Part shown: in pieces, positions 7,199 through 17,362 of the stretch
Layout of the letters: every line of letters starts with the position of its first letter
Position numbering within the stretch: position 1 is the first letter of the stretch
Assembly: GCA_031289775.1 (NCBI GenBank)
Contig: JAITOY010000048.1
Span: forward strand, 1 to 64,000
Direction: 5' to 3'
Origin: Synergistaceae bacterium
GTDB lineage: Bacteria > Synergistota > Synergistia > Synergistales > Synergistaceae
DNA length: 64,000 nucleotides
Position numbers and translations under genes: made by a program
Notes under the pieces: generated by a model
What the model saw: only the letters and a program-made list of their open reading frames with translations
Told to the model about the DNA's origin: nothing
Databases searched by the model: none

Positions 7199-7630
7199 TC
7201 ATGGGCGAGGCGCGGCGAGCGCTCGGAGAGCGAGGATATAGCTCTCCGAGCCGAAGCCGGCTATTATTCCCGCGCACACTGGGGCGATGACCGAGACGCG
7301 GCGGAACTCCTCGCGGGAGTGGACGTTCGAAATATGTACCTCGACCACGGGCGCGCGGATTGCGGCTATCGCGTCGCGAATGGCTATGCTGTAGTGCGTG
7401 TACGCGCCGGCGTTCAATATAACGCCGGCCGTCTCCGCCGCGCGCTGCACGGCGGAGACGAGTTCCCCCTCGGAGTTGCTCTGGAAAAATTCGCATTTGA
7501 GATCGAGCTCCGCCGCGAGGCGCGCAAGACGCGCGTTTATGCTCTCCAGCGTCTCGAAGCCGTATTTATCTGGCTCCCTCGTCCCCAGAAGGTTCAGGTT
7601 CGGGCCGTTTATCACCGCTATTCGCCTCAT
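7199..7630 (-). CDS. aroQ: Type II 3-dehydroquinate dehydratase
   Basis: A 143-residue enzyme of the type II family that converts 3-dehydroquinate to 3-dehydroshikimate. The catalytic signature is present: NGPNLNLLGTREPDKYG with R18 and Y23, NAGAYTHYS with N73 and H79, and EVHISNVHSREEFR with H99. No clear Shine-Dalgarno sequence precedes the ATG. It lies 76 nt after pheA, and this gap holds a 9-bp hairpin without a T-tract. I read it as the last gene of the aromatic operon. The lysW promoter lies just downstream. Confidence 0.93.
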   Translation of the reverse strand: MRRIAVINGPNLNLLGTREPDKYGFETLESINARLARLAAELDLKCEFFQSNSEGELVSAVQRAAETAGVILNAGAYTHYSIAIRDAIAAIRAPVVEVHISNVHSREEFRRVSVIAPVCAGIIAGFGSESYILALRALAAPRP

Positions 7631-7651
7631 CGTGTGTTTGTCCGCGTTTTT

Positions 7652-7676
7652 ATCGCGCCGCTGGTCACGGCGCGAT
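7652..7676. other. Perfect hairpin between pheA and aroQ
   Basis: ATCGCGCCG and CGGCGCGAT form a 9-bp stem with a 7-nt loop. No T-tract follows on either strand, so it is more likely an RNA-processing or stability element than a terminator. Confidence 0.5.
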
Positions 7677-7706
7677 TCGCCAGCAGGTTTGCGCCGCGCA
7701 TGTGTT

Positions 7707-8831
7707 TCATGAGTTTCTGTAGCATCCGATCACCTCGAAGTATTCGCATGTAGCGGCGGCCTGCCTCAGTGTGCTGAGGATGTCGTCATTCAGGATGCTG
7801 CCCTTCAGCTCGGCGAAGAAGCGGTATTTGTCCGGTGTCGCCGGGCGCGATTCTATCCGCATCAGGTTGACGCCCTGCGCCATGAAGGGCATCAGCGTCT
7901 CGCAGAGCGCGCCTGAGCGGTGCTGCGTCGAGAAAGTTATCGATATGAGGTCGCTCGTCTCGTCGTACTCGGGCTCGGTCGCTATGACGACGAACGATGT
8001 CCTGTTGCCGGAGGAGTCCATTATATCCGGGGCTAGGACGTCGAGGCCGTTGAGCTCCGCGGCTCTTCGCGAGCCGATGGCGGCCGTTCTGGCGTCCTTC
8101 GCTCTCGCCGCTGTTTCGGCCGCCACCGCGGTGTTCCGGCAGGCGGTGAGATCCCACGCGCGGCCATGAAGAAAACGGCCGCACTGCCTGAAGCCCTCGG
8201 GGTGAGAGAGAACCTCGCGCACGTCGGAGAGCGACGTCCCTGGGAGCGCGAGCAGGCACTGGCGGATGTCTATCCAAGTGCGCGCGACTATGAAACAGCC
8301 GTACTTCCTCAGAAGGTCGTATGTCTCGCCGATGGCGCCGGTCTGGGAGTTTTCTATCGGTACGACGCCGCAGTCGGCGCGGTTGTTCTTCACGGCGAGG
8401 AAGACGTCCTCGAAAAACTCGACCGCTGTTCGTGAGGCATCCGGGAAGAGTTTGATGAGCGCCTGCTCGCTCCACGCGCCCGGCACTCCCTGGAAAGCGC
8501 ATCTGACGCCGCTTTTCTTCGGCTCGCGGGGCGGGGGGAGCATCGGCATCTCGCTGTGAAACAACCGGCCTCCCTGGCGCTCGCGCGACAGCGCGAGGAT
8601 GGCGCGCATCAAAAGCGACACCTCGCCCCGCACGTCGCCGCTCGCGAGCGACATGGCGCGGTTCACCACGGTCTGCTCCCTGTCCGCGTCCTGAATGGGC
8701 ATGTTCTCCCCGATCTTCACGTCCGCCACTTTGAGCGAGATATCCATCCTCTCCTCAAAGAGGGCTATCATCTTTTCGTCTATTTCGTCGATGCGCCCGC
8801 GAAGCGTATCGAGTTTCTCCCTGCCGCTCAT
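7707..8831 (-). CDS. pheA: Bifunctional chorismate mutase / prephenate dehydratase
   Basis: A P-protein of 374 residues. Residues 1-85 are an AroQ-type chorismate mutase (LDTLRGRIDEIDEKMIALFEERM). Residues about 103-285 are prephenate dehydratase with GVPGAWSEQA, VPIENSQTGAIGETYDLL and the GNRTSF motif. The C-terminal part is an ACT domain (STQHRSGALCETLMPF, then MRIESRP) expected to bind phenylalanine for feedback control. The ATG at 8831 overlaps the aroF stop as ATGA; the longer frame upstream lies over aroF and was rejected. Confidence 0.93.
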   Translation of the reverse strand: MSGREKLDTLRGRIDEIDEKMIALFEERMDISLKVADVKIGENMPIQDADREQTVVNRAMSLASGDVRGEVSLLMRAILALSRERQGGRLFHSEMPMLPPPREPKKSGVRCAFQGVPGAWSEQALIKLFPDASRTAVEFFEDVFLAVKNNRADCGVVPIENSQTGAIGETYDLLRKYGCFIVARTWIDIRQCLLALPGTSLSDVREVLSHPEGFRQCGRFLHGRAWDLTACRNTAVAAETAARAKDARTAAIGSRRAAELNGLDVLAPDIMDSSGNRTSFVVIATEPEYDETSDLISITFSTQHRSGALCETLMPFMAQGVNLMRIESRPATPDKYRFFAELKGSILNDDILSTLRQAAATCEYFEVIGCYRNS

Positions 8832-9853
8832 GCGCTCTCCTCCTCCGCGATTATTACGCTGTGCAGTTTCTTTATCTTCTGCATCAGTCTGTCGAACAAA
8901 AACGGTGTTATGGACTGCTGGCCGTCGCACAGGGCTTTCTCCGGATGGTTGTGAACCTCTATCATGAGCCCGTCCGCGCCTGAAGCGACGGCGGCCATAG
9001 CCATCGGGAAGACGAGATCCCAGTGTCCCGTCGCGTGGGACGGGTCGACGACGACCGGCAGATGCGACCTCTTCTTCAGCACCGGCACGGCCGATATGTC
9101 GAGCGTGTTGCGCGTCGCCGTCTCGAATGTCCGTATTCCACGCTCGCAGAGGATCACGTTGCTTTTGCCGTCCACGAGCAGGTAGTCGGCGGCCTGAAGC
9201 ATCTCGTCTATCGTGCATGACGATCCGCGCTTCAGGAGGACGGGTTTCCCGAGAGAACCGACCTCCCGCAGGAGCGAGAAGTTCTGCATGTTTCTCGCCC
9301 CTATCTGGATGATATCGACGTCGTTCGCGAAAATTTCACAGTGCTCGGGCGACATCAGCTCCGTCACTATGGGCAGGCCCGTCTTTTCGCGGGCTATCTT
9401 CAAAAGCTCGAGCCCGTCCAGCCCAAGTCCCTGGAAAGCGTAGGGCGAGCTTCTCGGCTTGAACGCGCCGCCGCGCAGGAACGTCGCGCCCGAGAGCTTT
9501 ACCTCCCTCGCTATGGAGAGGATCTGCTCCTCGCTCTCCACTGAACATGGTCCGGCTATGACCGCGAGCCCGCCGCCGCCCACCCTCTGACCGCCCGGCA
9601 GCTCGACTATCGTGTCCTGAGGATGGAAGCGCCGGCTCGCCATTTTGTACGGTTCCGACACCTTCATGACCCGCTCGACGAACTCGTGGCGCGTTATAGT
9701 CTCCGCCGATACCATGGACGTGTCGCCGGCCAGGCCTATCATGCTGGTTGTCTCCCCCCTTATCTCCTGGATGATTAAATTGTGCCCGGTCACCTCCCCC
9801 TTCAACATGTCGATCTGTTCCTCCGTCGCCTCTGGTTTCAGTATGATTATCAT
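8828..9853 (-). CDS. aroF: 3-deoxy-7-phosphoheptulonate synthase (AroA-I-beta type)
   Basis: DAHP synthase of 341 residues, the first enzyme of the shikimate pathway, joining PEP and erythrose 4-phosphate. Residues 1-70 are the ferredoxin-like regulatory domain seen in the Thermotoga-type enzyme ([14 protein letters not shown]). The barrel follows with [35 protein letters not shown] and [10 protein letters not shown]. It overlaps both pheA and the aroK-aroE gene by 4 nt. The N-terminal domain suggests feedback by an aromatic amino acid. Confidence 0.93.
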
Positions 9854-11223
9854 CTCTCCAGCCTCTCTTTTGCCGTTTTATACAGGGTGGGCACGTCGAG
9901 CTCCCTCCCCGAAATCCCAAGAAAAATTTCGTCCGCCAGAATCGCCTGATAAATCAGCATACCAAGGCCGTTTCGCGCGGCGAGCCCGCGCTCTCCCGCC
10001 GCCCGCAGGAGACTCGTGACGGGCGGGTTGTAGACGAGGTCGCAGACGAGCGCGTCCGATGGCATCCCGCTCAAAAAATCGAGCGAGACGAAGTCGTCCG
10101 CGAGGCCGCTCATGCCGAGCGGTGTCGTGTTTATAAGGACATCCGCAGCGCGCGCCTCCCGAGTCATCGCCTCGCCCGACATTTCTCCGGCGCGGACGCG
10201 GCATGAGGCGTGAGGTCTCACAGACGAGGCTATTTCCGCCGCCACCTCGGCGCGGCGGGCGAGGATCGTTATGCCAGCGGCCTCCTCGCGGGCCGCCTTC
10301 AGCGCGACGCCCCTCGAAGCCCCGCCCGCGCCGAGTATCAGGATATTCCTCCCGGCGTAGCCCGAGCCCGCGTCTATCAGGGACGCCAGCAGACCGCCCA
10401 TGTCCGTGTTGTAGCCATAAAACCTTCCCTCCCTGATCGCGACAGTGTTGACGGCCCCGCAGAGCCGCGCCTCCTCCACGACGTCGTCGAGAAGAGGGAT
10501 GATATCGATCTTGTGCGGTATCGTTACGTTGAAGCCTCGCATATTCGAATTTCGGACCCTTTCGACGAAAGCGCCCAACTCCCCGCGAGGAACGCGCAGC
10601 GCGCCGTAACTTACCTTTGAGCCCAGGGCTCCGAATATGGCCCCGTGGATGGCGGGGGAAAGCGTGTGAGCTATCGGGTCGCCGATGACGCAGTACTCGG
10701 GGAGCGGGATTGGCGGCCCGGCCCATAGGGCGCTCAGGAGCTTCACGAGTTCGCCGAGCGACTCCCCGACCACGGCGCCGCCGCTTTGAACGCTGTCTGA
10801 GGCCTCCAAATACAGCGCGCGGCGGTCCCGCTCCATCTCGTACAATTTTCCGGCGTCAGTGAGGAGCGGGCGCTCGCCGTCGCACCGGACGTCCCGCAAA
10901 ATATTCTCCAGCGGACGGTCGAGGAATACCACGAAGCCGCTTTCGCGCATGGCTCGCGCGTTTTCCGGCCTCAGAACTACGCCGCCGCCTGTAGCTATTA
11001 TGGAGGGCACGGGGTTTTTAAGGGCCTCGTCGAGGGCGAGCGACTCCTCGTCGCGAAACCGAGCCTCCCCGTGCAGCGCGAAAATCTCCCGGATCTTCAT
11101 TCCCGTCCGCGCCTCGACGGAATCGTCCAGATCTACGAACGGCAGCCCAAATTCGCACGCGGCCAGCCGTCCGAGGGTGCTTTTGCCGCTGCCGGAGAGA
11201 CCGATGAGCAGCGCGTGTCTCAT
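9850..11223 (-). CDS. aroKE: Fused shikimate kinase - shikimate dehydrogenase
   Basis: One uninterrupted 457-codon frame encodes two enzymes. Residues 1-165 are shikimate kinase with the P-loop GLSGSGKST, LDDSVEARTGM, FRDEES and ATGGGVVLR. From about 173 the chain is shikimate dehydrogenase: YCVIGDPIAHTLSPAIH, NVTIPHK with the catalytic Lys, CGAVNTV, the NADP motif GAGGASRG and the C-terminal GLGMLIYQA. The two steps are consecutive, with AroE making shikimate and AroK phosphorylating it, but the order in the protein is reversed. It overlaps aroC and aroF by 4 nt. All key motifs of both halves are intact. Confidence 0.93.
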   Translation of the reverse strand: MRHALLIGLSGSGKSTLGRLAACEFGLPFVDLDDSVEARTGMKIREIFALHGEARFRDEESLALDEALKNPVPSIIATGGGVVLRPENARAMRESGFVVFLDRPLENILRDVRCDGERPLLTDAGKLYEMERDRRALYLEASDSVQSGGAVVGESLGELVKLLSALWAGPPIPLPEYCVIGDPIAHTLSPAIHGAIFGALGSKVSYGALRVPRGELGAFVERVRNSNMRGFNVTIPHKIDIIPLLDDVVEEARLCGAVNTVAIREGRFYGYNTDMGGLLASLIDAGSGYAGRNILILGAGGASRGVALKAAREEAAGITILARRAEVAAEIASSVRPHASCRVRAGEMSGEAMTREARAADVLINTTPLGMSGLADDFVSLDFLSGMPSDALVCDLVYNPPVTSLLRAAGERGLAARNGLGMLIYQAILADEIFLGISGRELDVPTLYKTAKERLER

Positions 11224-12296
11224 GCGGGAATCCCCCCCGCGGATAGCAGGGCGTCGAGGACGCAGAGCGCCAGGCAGGCCTCCACTACGGGGACGGCGCG
11301 GGGGACGATGCAGGGATCGTGGCGGCCGGCGACCGTTATCGTCGTCCCGCTCATGTCCGAGGCGTCGACGGTCTCCTGAGGGATAGAGACCGAGGCCGTC
11401 GGTTTTATAGCGGCCCTCACGACGAGCGGCATTCCGTTCGTTATGCCGCCGAGGATGCCTCCGTTATGGTTCGTCCGCGACTTTATGACGTCTCCATCCA
11501 TGTATGGCGCGTCGTTCGCCTCGCTTCCGCGCATCGCGGCGAGGCGGAAGCCGTCGCCGAACTCGACGCCCTTGACCGCTGGGACGGAGAAGAGGAGCGA
11601 GGCGACTGAGCTCTCCATCGAGCCGAAGAACGGCTCGCCGAGCCCGCCCCGCACCCCGAAGGCCGCCGCCTCCACGACACCGCCGACTGAGTCGCCCGCG
11701 GCTTTCGCCTCCATTATGGCGGCGCGCATCGCCTCCTCAGCTTCCTCAGAAGCGGGAAAGTCCCGCCCGGAGATCGCGCGGTATCCCAGAGCGCTGGAAT
11801 TGCCCGAAAAAGCCGGGTCGGATACCCTCGCGACGGACGCGGCGCGCGCGAAGACCTCGACGCCGCGCCGGCTCAGGATTTGCTTCGCAAGGCTGCCGGC
11901 GAAGACGAGCGGCGCCGTCAGTCTGCCGGAGAAGTGCCCGCCGCCGCGCATGTCGGCGAACCCGCGATATTTCAGCAACGCGGTCCAGTCCGCGTGCCCC
12001 GGGCGCAGCTTCGTTCCATAGTCCCGCGAGCGCGCGTCAGAGTTGCGTATGACGCCGCATATAGGAAAGCCGGTTGTTCTATCGCCGAGGAGCCCGCTTA
12101 AAATTTCGACTCCGTCCGACTCCCTCCGCGCCGTCGTGACCGCGTCCCTGCCCGGCGCGCGGCGGAGCATGTCGCGGGATACGCCGCCCCGGTCGATAAG
12201 CTCACCGGCCGGCAGTCCGTCAACTACGACGCCTATAGCGTCGCCGTGTGACTCTCCGAATATGGAGAGCCTCAGTTTGTTCCCCCACACGTTCAT
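11220..12296 (-). CDS. aroC: Chorismate synthase
   Basis: A 358-residue chorismate synthase that removes phosphate from EPSP using reduced FMN. Signature segments are WGNKLRLSIFGESHGDAIG at the N-terminus, RPGHADW, the GRLTA region and the C-terminal block GRHDPCIVPRAVPVVEA. It overlaps aroA and the aroK-aroE gene by 4 nt each. It is a normal-length enzyme with no oddities seen. Confidence 0.95.
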   Translation of the reverse strand: MNVWGNKLRLSIFGESHGDAIGVVVDGLPAGELIDRGGVSRDMLRRAPGRDAVTTARRESDGVEILSGLLGDRTTGFPICGVIRNSDARSRDYGTKLRPGHADWTALLKYRGFADMRGGGHFSGRLTAPLVFAGSLAKQILSRRGVEVFARAASVARVSDPAFSGNSSALGYRAISGRDFPASEEAEEAMRAAIMEAKAAGDSVGGVVEAAAFGVRGGLGEPFFGSMESSVASLLFSVPAVKGVEFGDGFRLAAMRGSEANDAPYMDGDVIKSRTNHNGGILGGITNGMPLVVRAAIKPTASVSIPQETVDASDMSGTTITVAGRHDPCIVPRAVPVVEACLALCVLDALLSAGGIPA

Positions 12297-13609
12297 CCGC
12301 GCTCCCCCTCAAAGTCACTCCAGAATCCAGGGTAGGACTTGTTTACGCTCCTCCAGCCCGAGAGCGTCACTGGCCCGTCGCAGCGGATCGCGGCCACCGC
12401 GAGGGCCATCGCTATGCGGTGATCCCCCCAGGCGTCGACCGAACCGCCCCTCAGACGGGACACGCCGGTGATGGAGAGAGAATCCCCCGCCTCCTCTATA
12501 TTGGCGCCGAGCTTTTTCAGCTCGGAGGTGAGCGCGCTAAGCCTGTCGCTCTCCTTTAACCGGAGCCTGCCCGCGTTCACAATGCGGCTCTTCCCCTCGC
12601 AGAAGCAGCAGAGCGCGGCGGTCGGCGGCACGAGGTCCGGGGTCTCCCGCGCGTCTATCGTGACGGCGGATAATTTTCCGGAGCGGCCCGCCGCGCGCGC
12701 AAAGACCACGCCCCCGCTCCATGAAATCTTCGCGCCCATAGCGCCGAGCACATCCAAAATCGCGCGATCGCCCTGGGCGCTTTTTGGGTCGAGCCCAGCG
12801 ACGCCCACGTCCCGCCCGAGGGCGGACGCGGCCAGGAAAAACGCCGCCTGCGAGTAGTCGGCCTCGACGCGGCAGCTGGCGGGATGAAAGCGTCCTCCCC
12901 CGACGCTGTAGAAATTTTCGCCCTCGTCCACCGCCACGCCAAAGCGCCCCATGACGTCGATCGTCAGTCGGACATACTGCCGCGATTCGAGAGGGGTCGA
13001 GAGGCGTATCACGCCGCCGCCCAACAGAGGCAGCGCGAAGAGCAGGCCAGAGACGAACTGGGAGCTGACGTCCCCCGGGAGTTCAAAGGGCTCGGTGGGA
13101 TTTTTCATCATCGGTCCTCTTACCCTGACGCCTTCCGGCGACTGTTCGAACGCGACGCCGGCCCGCGAGAAAATTTTTTCGTAAACGCTCAGAGGGCGGT
13201 TCATCAACCTTCCTCTGCCCGTGAAAAGCGTCTCTCTCCCATCGAGCGCCGCTATCGGCAGCAGGAAGCGCAGCGTCGAGCCCGACTCGCCGCAATCGAC
13301 GACTCTCACGCCGTTCCCCGGGTTTTTTGCCGGGCCGGGCGCGTCGGAAGAGCCGCCGCTTCCGACGTAAAGCGCCCCGTTTTCCACACGGGTCTTCGTC
13401 CCCAGGAGTGAGCAGACCCCGGTCGTGGTGGCGTCGAGGTCATCGGAGCCGCCGAAGTTCAGGATGACGCTCTCGCCTCCGGCTAGCGCGGCGCAGATCA
13501 CGGCGCGGTGTGAGATGCTCTTCGACGGCGGAGGAGTCACGAGACCCCCGGGGAAGCTCTCTATGATTTTTGTTTCGTTTATTTTGTTCGTCTCGTCCGC
13601 TTTATTCAT
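12293..13609 (-). CDS. aroA: 3-phosphoshikimate 1-carboxyvinyltransferase (EPSP synthase)
   Basis: A 438-residue EPSP synthase. The substrate motifs are PPSKSISHRAVICAALAGG near 26-44, GESGSTLRFLLPI, GRGRLMNRP, PGDVSSQFVSGLLFALPLL, ADYSQAAFFLAA and RLRLKESDRLSAL. The start ATG at 13609 gives a hydrophilic 20-residue extension (NKADETNKINETK) before the enzyme proper, so translation could begin slightly later. It lies 13 nt after aroB and overlaps aroC. Confidence 0.93.
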   Translation of the reverse strand: MNKADETNKINETKIIESFPGGLVTPPPSKSISHRAVICAALAGGESVILNFGGSDDLDATTTGVCSLLGTKTRVENGALYVGSGGSSDAPGPAKNPGNGVRVVDCGESGSTLRFLLPIAALDGRETLFTGRGRLMNRPLSVYEKIFSRAGVAFEQSPEGVRVRGPMMKNPTEPFELPGDVSSQFVSGLLFALPLLGGGVIRLSTPLESRQYVRLTIDVMGRFGVAVDEGENFYSVGGGRFHPASCRVEADYSQAAFFLAASALGRDVGVAGLDPKSAQGDRAILDVLGAMGAKISWSGGVVFARAAGRSGKLSAVTIDARETPDLVPPTAALCCFCEGKSRIVNAGRLRLKESDRLSALTSELKKLGANIEEAGDSLSITGVSRLRGGSVDAWGDHRIAMALAVAAIRCDGPVTLSGWRSVNKSYPGFWSDFEGERG

Positions 13610-13622
13610 TTTGCCCGCTTTC

Positions 13623-14699
13623 TCATGCGTTGGCCAGGAATTTTTTTATCTCATCGAAGCCGACGCGCTGGACGAAGGCCTCGCCTATGCGCCGCAGCAT
13701 TATCATGCGGACGCCGCCTGATCCGCTCTTTTTGTCCATGCTGAGGGCAGGAAGGAGTGCCGGGAGTTCGCCTTTGTAGTCCGCGTCGAGCCCGTGCAGT
13801 GAAAGGGCACGTCTGAGGGAGTCGGCCGTGCCGGGCTCCGTGAGACCCATCCTCTCGCCCAGCCCCGCGGCCAGGACCATTCCGAAAGAGACGGCCTCGC
13901 CGTGGCGGCAGGGCGCGAAACCGGATTGTTTTTCGATGGCGTGTCCGAAAGTGTGGCCGAAGTTGAGCAGCATGCGCTCGCCGAAGTCGTGCTCATCGCG
14001 GGAGACTATTTCGCTCTTTATGCGGCAGCAGTCGCCTATGACGTCGGCGAGCGCCGCTCCCGTCTCTTCGGTGGGTTCCGGCGAGGCGGACGGGGCAAGT
14101 GAGGCAAAAAGCCCGGTTGAGCGGATGGCGCCGTATTTTATGACCTCCGCCATGCCGCACCTGACCTCCCGTTCGGGCAGAGAGTCGAGCGTCGACGGAT
14201 CTATGACGACGATCTTCGGCTGATAGAAGGCGCCGACGAGGTTCTTGCCGTGTACGAGGTTTATGGCGGTTTTGCCGCCTACGCTCGAATCCACCTGTGC
14301 CAGGAGAGTCGTCGGAACCTGCGCAAAGCCGACGCCGCGCATCCAGGTGGCGGCGGCGAGGCCGCAGAGGTCGCCTACGACGCCGCCGCCGAAGGCGGCG
14401 ACTAGCCCGTCCCGTGGGAGCGATAGCCGGGCGAATGTGTCATAGAGGCCGGACAGGCCGTCGAGAGATTTGCTCGCCTCGCCCGCCGGGAGGACAATGG
14501 CCTCGAATGCGACCTCCGCGCGCGACAGCGACGAGAAAAATCTCTCCCGATACAGCCCCCAGACGTTCTCGTCCGTTACGACCGCAATCACACCGTCTTG
14601 GCAGAACGGGGCGAGCAGCTCCCCGAGCTTGTCGAGCAGCCCTTCGCCGATCAGGATGTCATACTTTTTCTCCTTGAGCTCCACAGTCAAATTTTTCAT
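13623..14699 (-). CDS. aroB: 3-dehydroquinate synthase
   Basis: A 358-residue NAD-dependent enzyme that cyclises DAHP. It has AFGGGVVGDLCGLAAATWMRG, QVPTTLLAQVDSSVGGKTAIN and HGKNLVGAFYQP, and the zinc ligands lie in the GMAEVIKYG and GHTFGHAIE segments. The ATG overlaps the tyrA stop as ATGA. Second gene of the aromatic operon. Confidence 0.95.
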   Translation of the reverse strand: MKNLTVELKEKKYDILIGEGLLDKLGELLAPFCQDGVIAVVTDENVWGLYRERFFSSLSRAEVAFEAIVLPAGEASKSLDGLSGLYDTFARLSLPRDGLVAAFGGGVVGDLCGLAAATWMRGVGFAQVPTTLLAQVDSSVGGKTAINLVHGKNLVGAFYQPKIVVIDPSTLDSLPEREVRCGMAEVIKYGAIRSTGLFASLAPSASPEPTEETGAALADVIGDCCRIKSEIVSRDEHDFGERMLLNFGHTFGHAIEKQSGFAPCRHGEAVSFGMVLAAGLGERMGLTEPGTADSLRRALSLHGLDADYKGELPALLPALSMDKKSGSGGVRMIMLRRIGEAFVQRVGFDEIKKFLANA

Positions 14700-15541
14700 T
14701 TCCTCAAAATCTCCCTCTTATTCTCCCCCGCCCGCTCGAGCAGCTCGTAAAGCCGCGCCGTGTCGCAGTCCGCGAGTGCCCCGCGCATCCTCCGCAGCAC
14801 GTCGATGTAGCTGTCGAGCCTCGCCATCGTGTGCGCCCGGTTGTCCATCAGAAGTTCCGTCCACGCTCCGGCGTTTATATCGGCCACCCTCGTGCTGTCC
14901 CGGAACGCACCCGCCGTAAACGCGGACGTCATCTCCGGGTGATACTCGACGCAGAGCGCTGCCGACGCGATGTGCATGAGATCACTCGTATAAGCGATTA
15001 TCGCGTCGTGCCGGTCGGGGGTGGACACCGCGACACGCGCCGCCCCGATGTGTCCGGCCAGTTCACGCATCAGTTCGATGCTCTCACTGCCGCTCGACGG
15101 AAGCGGACAGATTATGAAGCCGGAGTTTTTGTAGATCGCCGGGTCCGCGTTGTCGAAGCCGTCGCGCTCCTTGCCGGCCATCGGGTGGACTCCGACGTAG
15201 TCGACTCCGTCCGGCAGGAGCCCGGCCAGCCTCGCGTAAAGCCCGCTCTTGACACCGCAGATGTCCGAGACGACGGCGCCCGGTTTGAAAGCGGACACGT
15301 TCGCCGCGATCATGTCCGGTATGTTGTGGGCGTAGACGCAGAAAATCACGAGATCGGCGTCCCTGATGCCCTCTCCCGCATCCGCGAAAACTTCGTCCAC
15401 TATGCCCGAGAGCTTCGCTTTCGCGCGGACGGCGCCGAGCGTATCGACGCCGACGATCCCGGCTTCGCGAAAGCCGCGCAGCGCTCCGGCGAGGGAGGCG
15501 CCCATCAAACCCAGTCCTATGACGCATACGCGATAAGCCAT
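14696..15541 (-). CDS. tyrA: Prephenate dehydrogenase
   Basis: A 281-residue NAD(P)-dependent dehydrogenase without a chorismate mutase domain. It has the dinucleotide motif VIGLGLMGASLAGALR, the catalytic region VGVHPMAGKERDGFDNA, and a helical dimerisation C-terminus. Whether it prefers prephenate or arogenate is not clear. The ATG at 15541 follows AGAGGA at suitable spacing; an upstream in-frame start at 15577 lies in the terminator T-tract region and was not used. It is the first structural gene after the aromatic leader and attenuator. Confidence 0.9.
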   Translation of the reverse strand: MAYRVCVIGLGLMGASLAGALRGFREAGIVGVDTLGAVRAKAKLSGIVDEVFADAGEGIRDADLVIFCVYAHNIPDMIAANVSAFKPGAVVSDICGVKSGLYARLAGLLPDGVDYVGVHPMAGKERDGFDNADPAIYKNSGFIICPLPSSGSESIELMRELAGHIGAARVAVSTPDRHDAIIAYTSDLMHIASAALCVEYHPEMTSAFTAGAFRDSTRVADINAGAWTELLMDNRAHTMARLDSYIDVLRRMRGALADCDTARLYELLERAGENKREILRK

Positions 15542-15577
15542 TTTTATCCTCTCAGCCCTCACTGCGCTCAAAAGCAC

Positions 15578-15608
15578 AAAAAAACCGGGATCCGCTCGCG
15601 GACCCCGG
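15578..15608 (-). terminator. Attenuator terminator in the tyrA leader
   Basis: On the minus strand CCGGGGTCCGC (15598-15608) pairs with GCGGATCCCGG (15585-15595), about 10 bp, followed by seven T. It lies between the leader peptide stop and tyrA. The upstream segment ACGGATCCCGC near 15685-15695 duplicates the 3' arm and could pair with the 5' arm instead. Confidence 0.8.
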
Positions 15609-15644
15609 CTCTACATGCTGATATGCGCTTTGTCGTATTTTTTT

Positions 15645-15761
15645 CTAACCGCCTGAAACACGACAAGCACACATCCCACGCAAAGCGGGATCCGTGCTGA
15701 TAAAGGAGAACCACGCGGTATAAGAGTAAACCGGCCCACAATCTGCCCGATAAGACTTCAT
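15645..15761 (-). CDS. Aromatic-rich leader peptide of the aro/tyrA operon
   Basis: A 38-codon ORF preceded by a purine-rich GGGAGGGGG. It has Tyr at 4, 12 and 14, Trp at 17 and Phe at 18 and 20; the core reads VYSYTAWFSF. It stops 37 nt before the terminator stem. Directly after the aromatic codons come the codons that carry the alternative pairing arm. It is not a known protein by my recognition, but its composition and position fit a trpL/pheL-like leader peptide that measures Tyr/Trp/Phe supply for the operon. Confidence 0.7.
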   Translation of the reverse strand: MKSYRADCGPVYSYTAWFSFISTDPALRGMCACRVSGG

Positions 15762-15820
15762 ATCCCTGTGCCCCCTCCCTGTCGCGAACCGACAATTAAA
15801 ACTAATATGCAATGGGTGAA

Positions 15821-15849
15821 TTTATAAACCACAAAACCCGTTTTGTCAA
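15821..15849 (-). promoter_or_regulatory. Promoter of the aromatic operon
   Basis: TTGACA (15844-15849), a 17-bp spacer and TATAAA (15821-15826) on the minus strand, about 60 bp before the leader peptide ATG. The edge of the insertion sequence lies 15 bp upstream of the -35 box. Confidence 0.75.
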
Positions 15850-15864: not shown

Positions 15865-15919
15865 TGTGTCATTCGTCTGTGATAATGTCCGCTCATAAAT
15901 CGTCTGAGAAAATGTCCGC

Positions 15920-17239
15920 ATGAGACAGGAGCGAGTGACATTGAGCAGGGAAGAATTAAAGCGCGTGAAGGTGTTGGAACGGATGGCGTCCGGCAGCATG
16001 AGCAAAGCGGAGTCAGCATCCAGTCTTGGGATAACGCCCCGTCAATTGAGAAGGTTGAAGGCAAAATACGAGAGGGAAGGAGATGCCGGGCTGATTCACG
16101 GTAATCGAGGCCGCAAGCCTCAACACGCGTTGCCCGATGAGTTAAAGTCCAAAGTTTTGCGTCTGTACAACGATAAATACTATGACAGCAATTTCTGCCA
16201 CTATTCTGAACTATTGGAGGAACACGAAAATATACGGTTAAGCCCGTCAAGCATAGGCAGGATATTAAAGTCGTCAGGCGAGGAGAGCAAAAGGCACAGG
16301 AGACGCAAGGCGAAAAAGCACCAGCCCAGGGAACGCCGGGCACAAGCCGGCAGTCTGTGGCAGACAGACGCGACGCCATACGAATGGCTTGGGAAAGAGA
16401 TCGGTCGTTTCGCCCTCCACGCCGTTATCGACGACGCGACCGGCATTGTCACAGGCGCTGTCTTTACGCGGAACGAATGCGCTGAAGGCTACAGTATAGC
16501 GATGCGGGAGGGCATTGAGAAGTATGGCATCCCGTTGGGGTTATATAGCGACCGGCATACGATCTTCCGCTCTCCTAAAGAAAAGCAGACTATAGACGCC
16601 GAACTTGACGGCGAACAAATACCATTATCGAATTTCGGCAAAGCAATGGCGGAGCTTCATATACAGCACATAAAAGCCAATACCCCGCAAGCCAAGGGCA
16701 GGATAGAACGCTTGTGGGAGACGCTTCAGGATCGATTGCCGGTAGAGTTTAGGCTGCTTGGCATAAAAAGTATCGAGGAAGCCAATGAAGTGTTGCCTCA
16801 GCTCATTGAGAAACACAACACAAAATATTCCGTCTCTCCCGCGGAGAGCGGCAGTTCATATATGCCTCCCGATAAAACAGTTTGCCTGGAACATGTGTTT
16901 GCCCTGCGAACGGCGAGAAAAATAGGCGGAGGCAACAGCGTATCTTATAAAAATGCCATATACGTTCCTGTAAACGGCAGCATTTGTTGCCTTGATTCAA
17001 AAACGGCTGTCGAAATTAGGGAAACATACTCAGGCGAGGTCTTTATCTGGCGCAACGGCCAACCGATCCCACTTAAAAAAATTGAGCGCCGCCCGCGACT
17101 TTCCGCGATTGAGGAAACAGTTGATGAGAGTCCCGAGCCCAAAACAAAATATAAGCCATCACTAAATCATCCATGGAACTCCCACTTTAGAAAATTGAAC
17201 CTGAACAATTCAAATGCAAGAGTCACAGCTGCGAATTAA
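15920..17239 (+). CDS. DDE transposase of the IS1202/ISNCY type
   Basis: A 439-residue transposase. The N-terminal helix-turn-helix region (MSKAESASSLGITPRQLRRLKAKY) is followed by a basic stretch and an rve-like catalytic core. The likely acidic triad is D150 (WQTDATPYEW), D211 (LYSDRHTIF) and E263 (GRIERLWE). The C-terminal part (YKNAIYVP, TAVEIRETYSGEVFIW) is typical for this group. The ATG at 15920 touches the inner repeat; a TTG at 15941 with AGGAG upstream is another possible start. The A+T content is higher than that of the neighbouring genes, consistent with recent transfer. Confidence 0.85.
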   Translation: MRQERVTLSREELKRVKVLERMASGSMSKAESASSLGITPRQLRRLKAKYEREGDAGLIHGNRGRKPQHALPDELKSKVLRLYNDKYYDSNFCHYSELLEEHENIRLSPSSIGRILKSSGEESKRHRRRKAKKHQPRERRAQAGSLWQTDATPYEWLGKEIGRFALHAVIDDATGIVTGAVFTRNECAEGYSIAMREGIEKYGIPLGLYSDRHTIFRSPKEKQTIDAELDGEQIPLSNFGKAMAELHIQHIKANTPQAKGRIERLWETLQDRLPVEFRLLGIKSIEEANEVLPQLIEKHNTKYSVSPAESGSSYMPPDKTVCLEHVFALRTARKIGGGNSVSYKNAIYVPVNGSICCLDSKTAVEIRETYSGEVFIWRNGQPIPLKKIERRPRLSAIEETVDESPEPKTKYKPSLNHPWNSHFRKLNLNNSNARVTAAN

Positions 17240-17240
17240 A

Positions 17241-17284
17241 AAACTCCCGATGTATGTCCTGAAACATCATTGGGAGTTTTTATA
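17241..17284 (+). terminator. Terminator inside the right end of the IS
   Basis: ACTCCC pairs with GGGAGT, helped by an inner ATGT/ACAT match, and is followed by TTTTTATAT. It lies directly after the transposase stop. Confidence 0.65.
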
Positions 17285-17346
17285 TAACGGACATTTTCTC
17301 AGACGAGTTAGCTCTCTTTTGGCGGACATTTTCTCAGATGCTTGAC

Positions 17347-17362
17347 AGTATTTTGTCGGCGG
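17347..17362. repeat. Right copy of 16-bp direct repeat flanking the IS
   Basis: AGTATTTTGTCGGCGG, identical to 15849-15864. Sequence after it differs from the left side, as expected for a target duplication. Confidence 0.7.

Follow-up and report, generated by a model that had tools for sequence, protein, structure and literature searches.

A probable leader-peptide attenuator before the aromatic amino acid operon of a Synergistaceae bacterium appears to be one copy of a module with exchangeable sensor codons in Synergistota

The complete shikimate, phenylalanine and tyrosine operon of a Synergistaceae bacterium lies behind a leader that comparative sequence analysis and folding models identify, with a probability we put at about 0.88, as a ribosome-mediated transcription attenuator in which the charging of Tyr-tRNA and Phe-tRNA would be sensed for the whole operon, and as one member of a Synergistota-wide module. 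What appears to be new is a single attenuator module that can be recycled by exchange of its sensor codons. Leader-peptide attenuation itself is textbook knowledge from proteobacterial amino-acid leaders of the trp, his and phe type, and an earlier note on this DNA had proposed it for the present operon. The leader features described in that note are real. Throughout, "the window" is the whole stretch analyzed, 64,000 nucleotides of contig JAITOY010000048.1 (assembly GCA_031289775.1).

Results

The leader and its operon

The minus strand of the window carries a 38-codon open reading frame (ORF) followed by a terminator with seven T before tyrA, as the earlier note had described (Table 1). Folding assigns this terminator, which lies between the leader ORF and tyrA, -21.5 kcal/mol. 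The promoter hexamers TTGACA and TATAAA are present in most of eight aligned homologous leaders; a strict promoter scan of the window did not list the TTGACA-17-TATAAA arrangement, in which TATAAA is without the terminal T. Behind the leader, tyrA-aroB-aroA-aroC-aroKE-aroF-pheA-aroQ make up the complete shikimate, Phe and Tyr operon, the pheA product being a chorismate mutase/prephenate dehydratase. An IS-like element occupies window positions 15867-17347, with terminal inverted repeats flanking a transposase-like ORF (15920-17239; HTH_28/HTH_29), and ends approximately 18 nt upstream of the -35 element of the aro operon promoter.

Table 1. Features of the aro operon leader and downstream genes in the window
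Feature	Position	Strand	Details
Promoter	15821..15849	-	TTGACA 15849-15844, 17 nt spacer, TATAAA 15826-15821; read from sequence
Shine-Dalgarno-like GGGAGGGGG, just 5' of leader ORF	~15779-15771	-	
Leader ORF, 38 codons + TAG (MKSYRADCGPVYSYTAWFSFISTDPALRGMCACRVSGG)	15645..15761 (15761-15645)	-	Homologous ORFs at 73 loci
Sensor codons	15702..15728	-	Tyr11 15728-15726, Tyr13 15722-15720, Trp16 15713-15711 (not conserved), Phe17-Ser18-Phe19 15710-15702
Arm A (GCACGGATCCC), switch strand	15687..15697	-	Covariation, swap test
Segment ACGGATCCCGC	15695-15685	-	Complementary to terminator 5' arm
Arm B (GGGATGTGTGC), partner of arm A in terminating state	15667..15677	-	Covariation
Arm B' (ACGACAAAGCGCA)	15624..15636	-	Antiterminator partner of the end of B and the next bases (TGTGCTTGTCGT)
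Arm C + 5' flank (CATGTAGAGCCGGGGTCCG)	15599..15617	-	Antiterminator partner of arm A, and terminator 5' arm; swap test
Intrinsic terminator, arms C and D, seven T	15578..15609	-	Stem 15609-15584, TTTTTTT 15584-15578
tyrA, prephenate dehydrogenase, first gene of operon	14696..15541	-	Start 15541
aroB, aroA, aroC, aroK-aroE fusion, DAHP synthase (aroF), pheA, aroQ	7199..14699	-	

T-boxes often supply antitermination before amino-acid operons in other phyla, and the leader could in principle be a T-box, a known riboswitch or a protein-dependent antiterminator with a fortuitous ORF. We regard this explanation as scarcely credible, given that an Rfam covariance-model scan of the whole window returned no family at the gathering score (leader, T-box and riboswitch families included) and that the ORF, its Shine-Dalgarno sequence and the sensor codons are conserved and swapped among homologues.

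A family of leaders in Synergistota

A DNA search with the leader returned a second locus in the window genome and matches in many Synergistaceae genomes; repeatedly, the match lay in a short ORF with a terminator behind it, and the genes downstream differed. Of 188 Synergistota genomes, 43 contained the core pattern TTCTCCTTTAYCRGCRCGGRTCC, and the reversed control gave zero matches. Across 84,980 species, the exact Phe-type pattern was present on 21 contigs, 20 of them titled Synergistaceae and one Candidatus Caccocola faecipullorum. Two covariance models were run on the 188 genomes: R1, built on the core, matched 83 of them, and R2, restricted to the hairpin and free of sensor codons, matched 86, at E limits of 0.1 and 0.3, respectively, where the weakest matches are chance; the window itself scored 3.0e-12 (R1) and 6.2e-10 (R2). 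The named genomes are mostly metagenome assemblies. We assembled 73 Synergistota leaders, 63 of them non-redundant with a shared core, and found a terminator in every one (73/73; median -24 kcal/mol).

A search with the TyrA protein, in which the leader was not part of the query, placed the leader before all close orthologues (66-71% identity, six genomes), for example as MSFDGTFYYWSVYSYYSYTALFSFTSM... and MKSDRNVCNLPVYYYTTLFSFTCEN.... At these orthologues the codons, the terminator and the alternative pairings are all kept, which supports the attenuation reading. Two more distant tyrA genes, from another genus, have an unrelated aromatic-rich leader and a terminator (MATNLKSSYFYFTGWNWDYYFSRSQFVMA). 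The tyrA leaders L112 and L113 (genus g15) are rich in all three aromatic residues (YFYF, WNW and YYF), are followed by a terminator, and are without the shared hairpin core. Still more distant tyrA genes that we read had no leader and followed immediately on other coding sequence. The paaK gene of the window genome is without this leader, and the module is therefore not universal. By sequence comparison, the aro operon leader is a member of a phylum-wide family and not a one-off.

Predicted sensor codons differ between target genes

We counted codon offsets from the second Phe of the FSF segment (offset 0). Among 18 aro-type leaders, which precede the aro operon or aro/phe genes, 12 have Tyr at offset -8 and 15 have it at -6, and these Tyr codons stood outside the core pattern and the models. 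Phe is found at -2 in 18/18 and at 0 in 17/18, figures that are inflated because the first leader sets were retrieved with FSF in the query. Aromatic residues are scarce 3' of the core (5/320). The earlier note had proposed sensing of Tyr, Trp and Phe; the conserved codons support Tyr and Phe, and sensing of Trp was rejected because homologous leaders do not conserve Trp16.

Leaders before other genes carry other codons at the same site. Before paaK, the runs are FSF, FFFFF, FFFSF, FYFYYF or similar; five genomes have a second paaK preceded by YSY, with TAC TCT TAT in place of TTC TCC TTT. At L171 and L177-L180, tandem paaK genes have separate leaders, FSF before the first and YSY before the second, suggesting specificities for phenylacetate versus 4-hydroxyphenylacetate. 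The R2 model reached IIIII leaders before genes for a 2-oxoacid:ferredoxin oxidoreductase of the pyruvate/2-ketoisovalerate family; in the window genome, one such Ile-run leader (MRKKYSSTPNSIIIIISNAAPPRGIGV; L199, G000:C74:29381-29420) stands with a terminator before a 2-oxoacid:ferredoxin oxidoreductase operon. The oxidoreductase subunits are nearest to pyruvate synthase models, but the general PorC/KorC family is the only one whose cut-off was reached. IIII occurs before ilvA-like dehydratase genes, and an Ile/Leu run before ilvHB. An aromatic or Ile run occupies the sensor site in all 20 of the R2-only loci that we read, and in essentially every leader read the run sits at one fixed place directly 5' of arm A. 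The codons at this site track the target gene, and this is the strongest evidence that the codons are the sensor.

Several further loci were observed. In the window genome, the FSF-type leader L002/L104 (G000:C16, ~20290) precedes a gene for an ELFV-family dehydrogenase that is closest to the tryptophan dehydrogenase ScyB, and a transporter of the sodium:neurotransmitter symporter family comes next. L195 and L215 (FFYFYF and FFYYWF) precede an uncharacterized hydrophobic protein and an aminotransferase-like gene; the hydrophobic protein downstream of L195 had no Pfam match, and an aromatic amino acid transporter is possibly encoded here. FSF-type leaders also precede a major facilitator transporter at L054, L090 and L091, a candidate carrier of aryl acids or aromatic amino acids. 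L056 and L169 are family leaders before unrelated-looking genes (one acylphosphatase-like, the other for a large protein whose N-terminal region contains FRIPDYQRGY), perhaps placed there by rearrangement.

The codons TTC TCC TTT are near-invariant (45 of 63 non-redundant leaders), which suggests an additional constraint at the nucleotide level, part of the invariance coming from the search pattern. The nucleotides of TTCTCCTTTA (window 15710-15701 and homologues) are nearly invariant in FSF-type leaders and are complementary to the typical leader's own Shine-Dalgarno sequence, and this segment may limit re-initiation. A role of TTCTCCTTT as primarily an anti-Shine-Dalgarno element, complementary to the AAAGGAG-like Shine-Dalgarno sequence of the leader, was considered and dropped as not general, since Ile-type and YSY-type leaders are without TTCTCCTTT.

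Near-invariant FSF codons would also fit a nascent-peptide arrest, in which the ribosome would be halted by a conserved FSF[TI]GxxP..GIC peptide upon a small-molecule signal, as in TnaC; the peptide 3' of FSF does look conserved, with Pro at +5 in 43 of 45 paaK-type and other leaders. However, FFF, YSY, FYF or III takes the place of FSF as the target changes, and the leaders L158 and L106 shift frame or spacing after the core while their hairpin arms are still recognizable. Moreover, the conservation after the core tracks the hairpin arms, with compensatory changes. We rejected peptide arrest on the frame and spacing changes and the codon swaps, and consider it very unlikely.

Mutually exclusive RNA folds

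Folding of the whole leader against shuffled sequence gave z = -4.8. The segment ACGGATCCCGC has two alternative partners, a hairpin strand inside the ORF and, in an extended hairpin, the terminator 5' arm. Pairing with the terminator 5' arm had been noted before and holds, but its size, given as about 9 bp, does not: the antiterminator of the window is a 30-bp extended hairpin of 18 + 12 bp (-55.8 kcal/mol). The competing, less stable fold consists of the arm A/arm B hairpin (-21.2 kcal/mol) plus the terminator (-21.5 kcal/mol).

The A/B hairpin, which the earlier note had listed as a second hairpin, is real (15698-15687 with 15677-15666). Among 35 diverse sequences, 92.7% of its cells are paired and 9 of 11 pairs are compensated, although kinship among leader sequences can inflate this and the compensated-pair counts given below; slid controls reached at most 54% paired. 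Arm A pairs with arm C and its 5' flank using loop bases too. When arms A and C were swapped between leaders, own partners gave -24.3 versus -17.5 kcal/mol for swapped ones (0/5000 permutations), and the reversed control was flat. Within 16 aro-type leaders, the antiterminator (A/C + B/B', 30 pairs) is 89% paired with nine pairs compensated, its B/B' part (12 pairs) is 88% paired, and the terminating fold (A/B + C/D) is 93.5% paired with ten pairs compensated. The swap test and these pairing counts show antiterminator and terminator to be mutually exclusive. Values obtained by shuffling should not be taken as probabilities. In the aligned sequences, the leader pairings are in excess of chance.

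Ribosome position and the predicted switch

We modeled the window RNA with a ribosome masked at successive codons. With the A site at any codon between Asp6 and Ser18, a range that covers Tyr11, Tyr13, Trp16 and Phe17, the predicted probability of the terminator was 0.05-0.20, with a few early codons rising to 0.34; from Phe19 onward it was approximately 0.98. In this two-state fold, which the earlier note had proposed to carry out, masking flips the predicted structure precisely at the FSF codons. Across five footprint sizes the flip shifted by no more than one codon, and single upstream codons reached 0.35-0.50; with a 12-nt upstream footprint and the ribosome at the stop codon, the terminator formed at only ~20%. 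The computed masking effect is clear in the window and weaker for the aro-type average.

Ribosome-free window RNA gave a terminator probability of 0.06, a predicted readthrough, so the operon would open whenever translation failed. This result would be expected if the leader gauged translation in general and its aromatic codons were incidental. That explanation is improbable in our judgment, because in essentially all leaders read the runs match the pathway (Tyr/Phe, Phe, Tyr or Ile) at a fixed site directly 5' of arm A.

For paaK-type and Ile-type leaders, the terminator is favored at equilibrium for nearly all ribosome positions, and L199, the Ile-type leader of the window genome, shows no switch at equilibrium folding. 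A simple model in which a free arm A means antiterminator and equilibrium decides fits the window but fails on paaK-type leaders. We therefore used a truncated-transcript calculation, which covered the 73 leaders (L190 being their only Ile-run leader). With the transcript cut before arm D, the upstream RNA of paaK-type leaders holds arm C for ribosome positions up to offset 0 and frees it beyond, as a co-transcriptional switch would require; no other calculation yielded the anticipated switch for these leaders. For the models of paaK-type and Ile-type leaders, a kinetic (co-transcriptional) folding order must be assumed.

Discussion

We propose that attenuation at these leaders would proceed as follows. 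The leader ORF would be translated, and starvation for Tyr or Phe would stall the ribosome on a Tyr codon or on the first of the two FSF Phe codons. A ribosome stalled there would leave arm A free to form A/C, extended by B/B', which would keep C out of the terminator, and RNA polymerase would read through into the operon. A ribosome that has moved past FSF would cover arm A, C would pair with D, and transcription would terminate. The amino acid sensed would differ by target: leaders of the aro operon and of aro/phe genes would sense Tyr and Phe, those of paaK either Phe or Tyr, and those of the 2-oxoacid oxidoreductase, the ilvA-like gene and ilvHB would sense Ile.

This arrangement would resemble proteobacterial leaders such as pheL-pheA (pheL is annotated in E. 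coli) in its runs of codons for the product amino acid in a translated leader, its mutually exclusive antiterminator and terminator, and termination when the amino acid is plentiful. Unlike in those leaders, the ribosome would cover the switch strand A itself, the other possible partner of A, arm B, is located further 3' in the ORF, one extended hairpin forms the antiterminator, and the hairpin sequence is common to leaders of different specificity. T-boxes read uncharged tRNA directly, without translation. Like them, the module would serve many amino acids with a single RNA architecture through a changed codon-like specifier; unlike them, its predicted sensor is a translated ORF with a ribosome, and the window has no Rfam T-box match.

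Attenuators have been computationally predicted for trp and leuS leaders of Actinobacteria (PMC1262725) and for His leaders of Bacillota (PMC9413887). They share with the present family a predicted leader, terminator and antiterminator, and sensor codons upstream of the attenuator hairpin, but they were described per amino acid and lineage, whereas here one module carries Phe, Tyr or Ile codons within one phylum. The placement of such a leader ahead of paaK and of a 2-oxoacid oxidoreductase is a further difference. In the open-access literature we found no description of leader-peptide attenuation in Synergistota, nor any example of a single conserved hairpin module fitted with different sensor codons for different pathways.

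We lean slightly towards a common origin, in which one ancestral module, present in ~40% of the 188 sampled genomes, was copied before different operons and its sensor codons rewritten (Tyr+Phe, Phe, Tyr or Ile). Since the module would open genes on starvation, paaK and the Ile-tagged 2-oxoacid:ferredoxin oxidoreductase are predicted, with the same slight preference, to run in the biosynthetic direction. If this is true, aryl and branched-chain acids would be assimilated into Phe, Tyr and Ile by these amino-acid fermenters. Conversion of phenylacetate to Phe and of 2-methylbutyrate to Ile has been discussed for rumen microbes (PMC7356843), and routes of this kind for aryl acids have been discussed for Methanococcus (cited in PMC4162585). 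The module would serve as a label of amino-acid specificity, indicating which product a neighboring enzyme serves and in which direction, and it makes testable the assimilation of phenylacetate, 4-hydroxyphenylacetate and 2-methylbutyrate by PaaK and 2-oxoacid oxidoreductase in protein-fermenting Synergistota.
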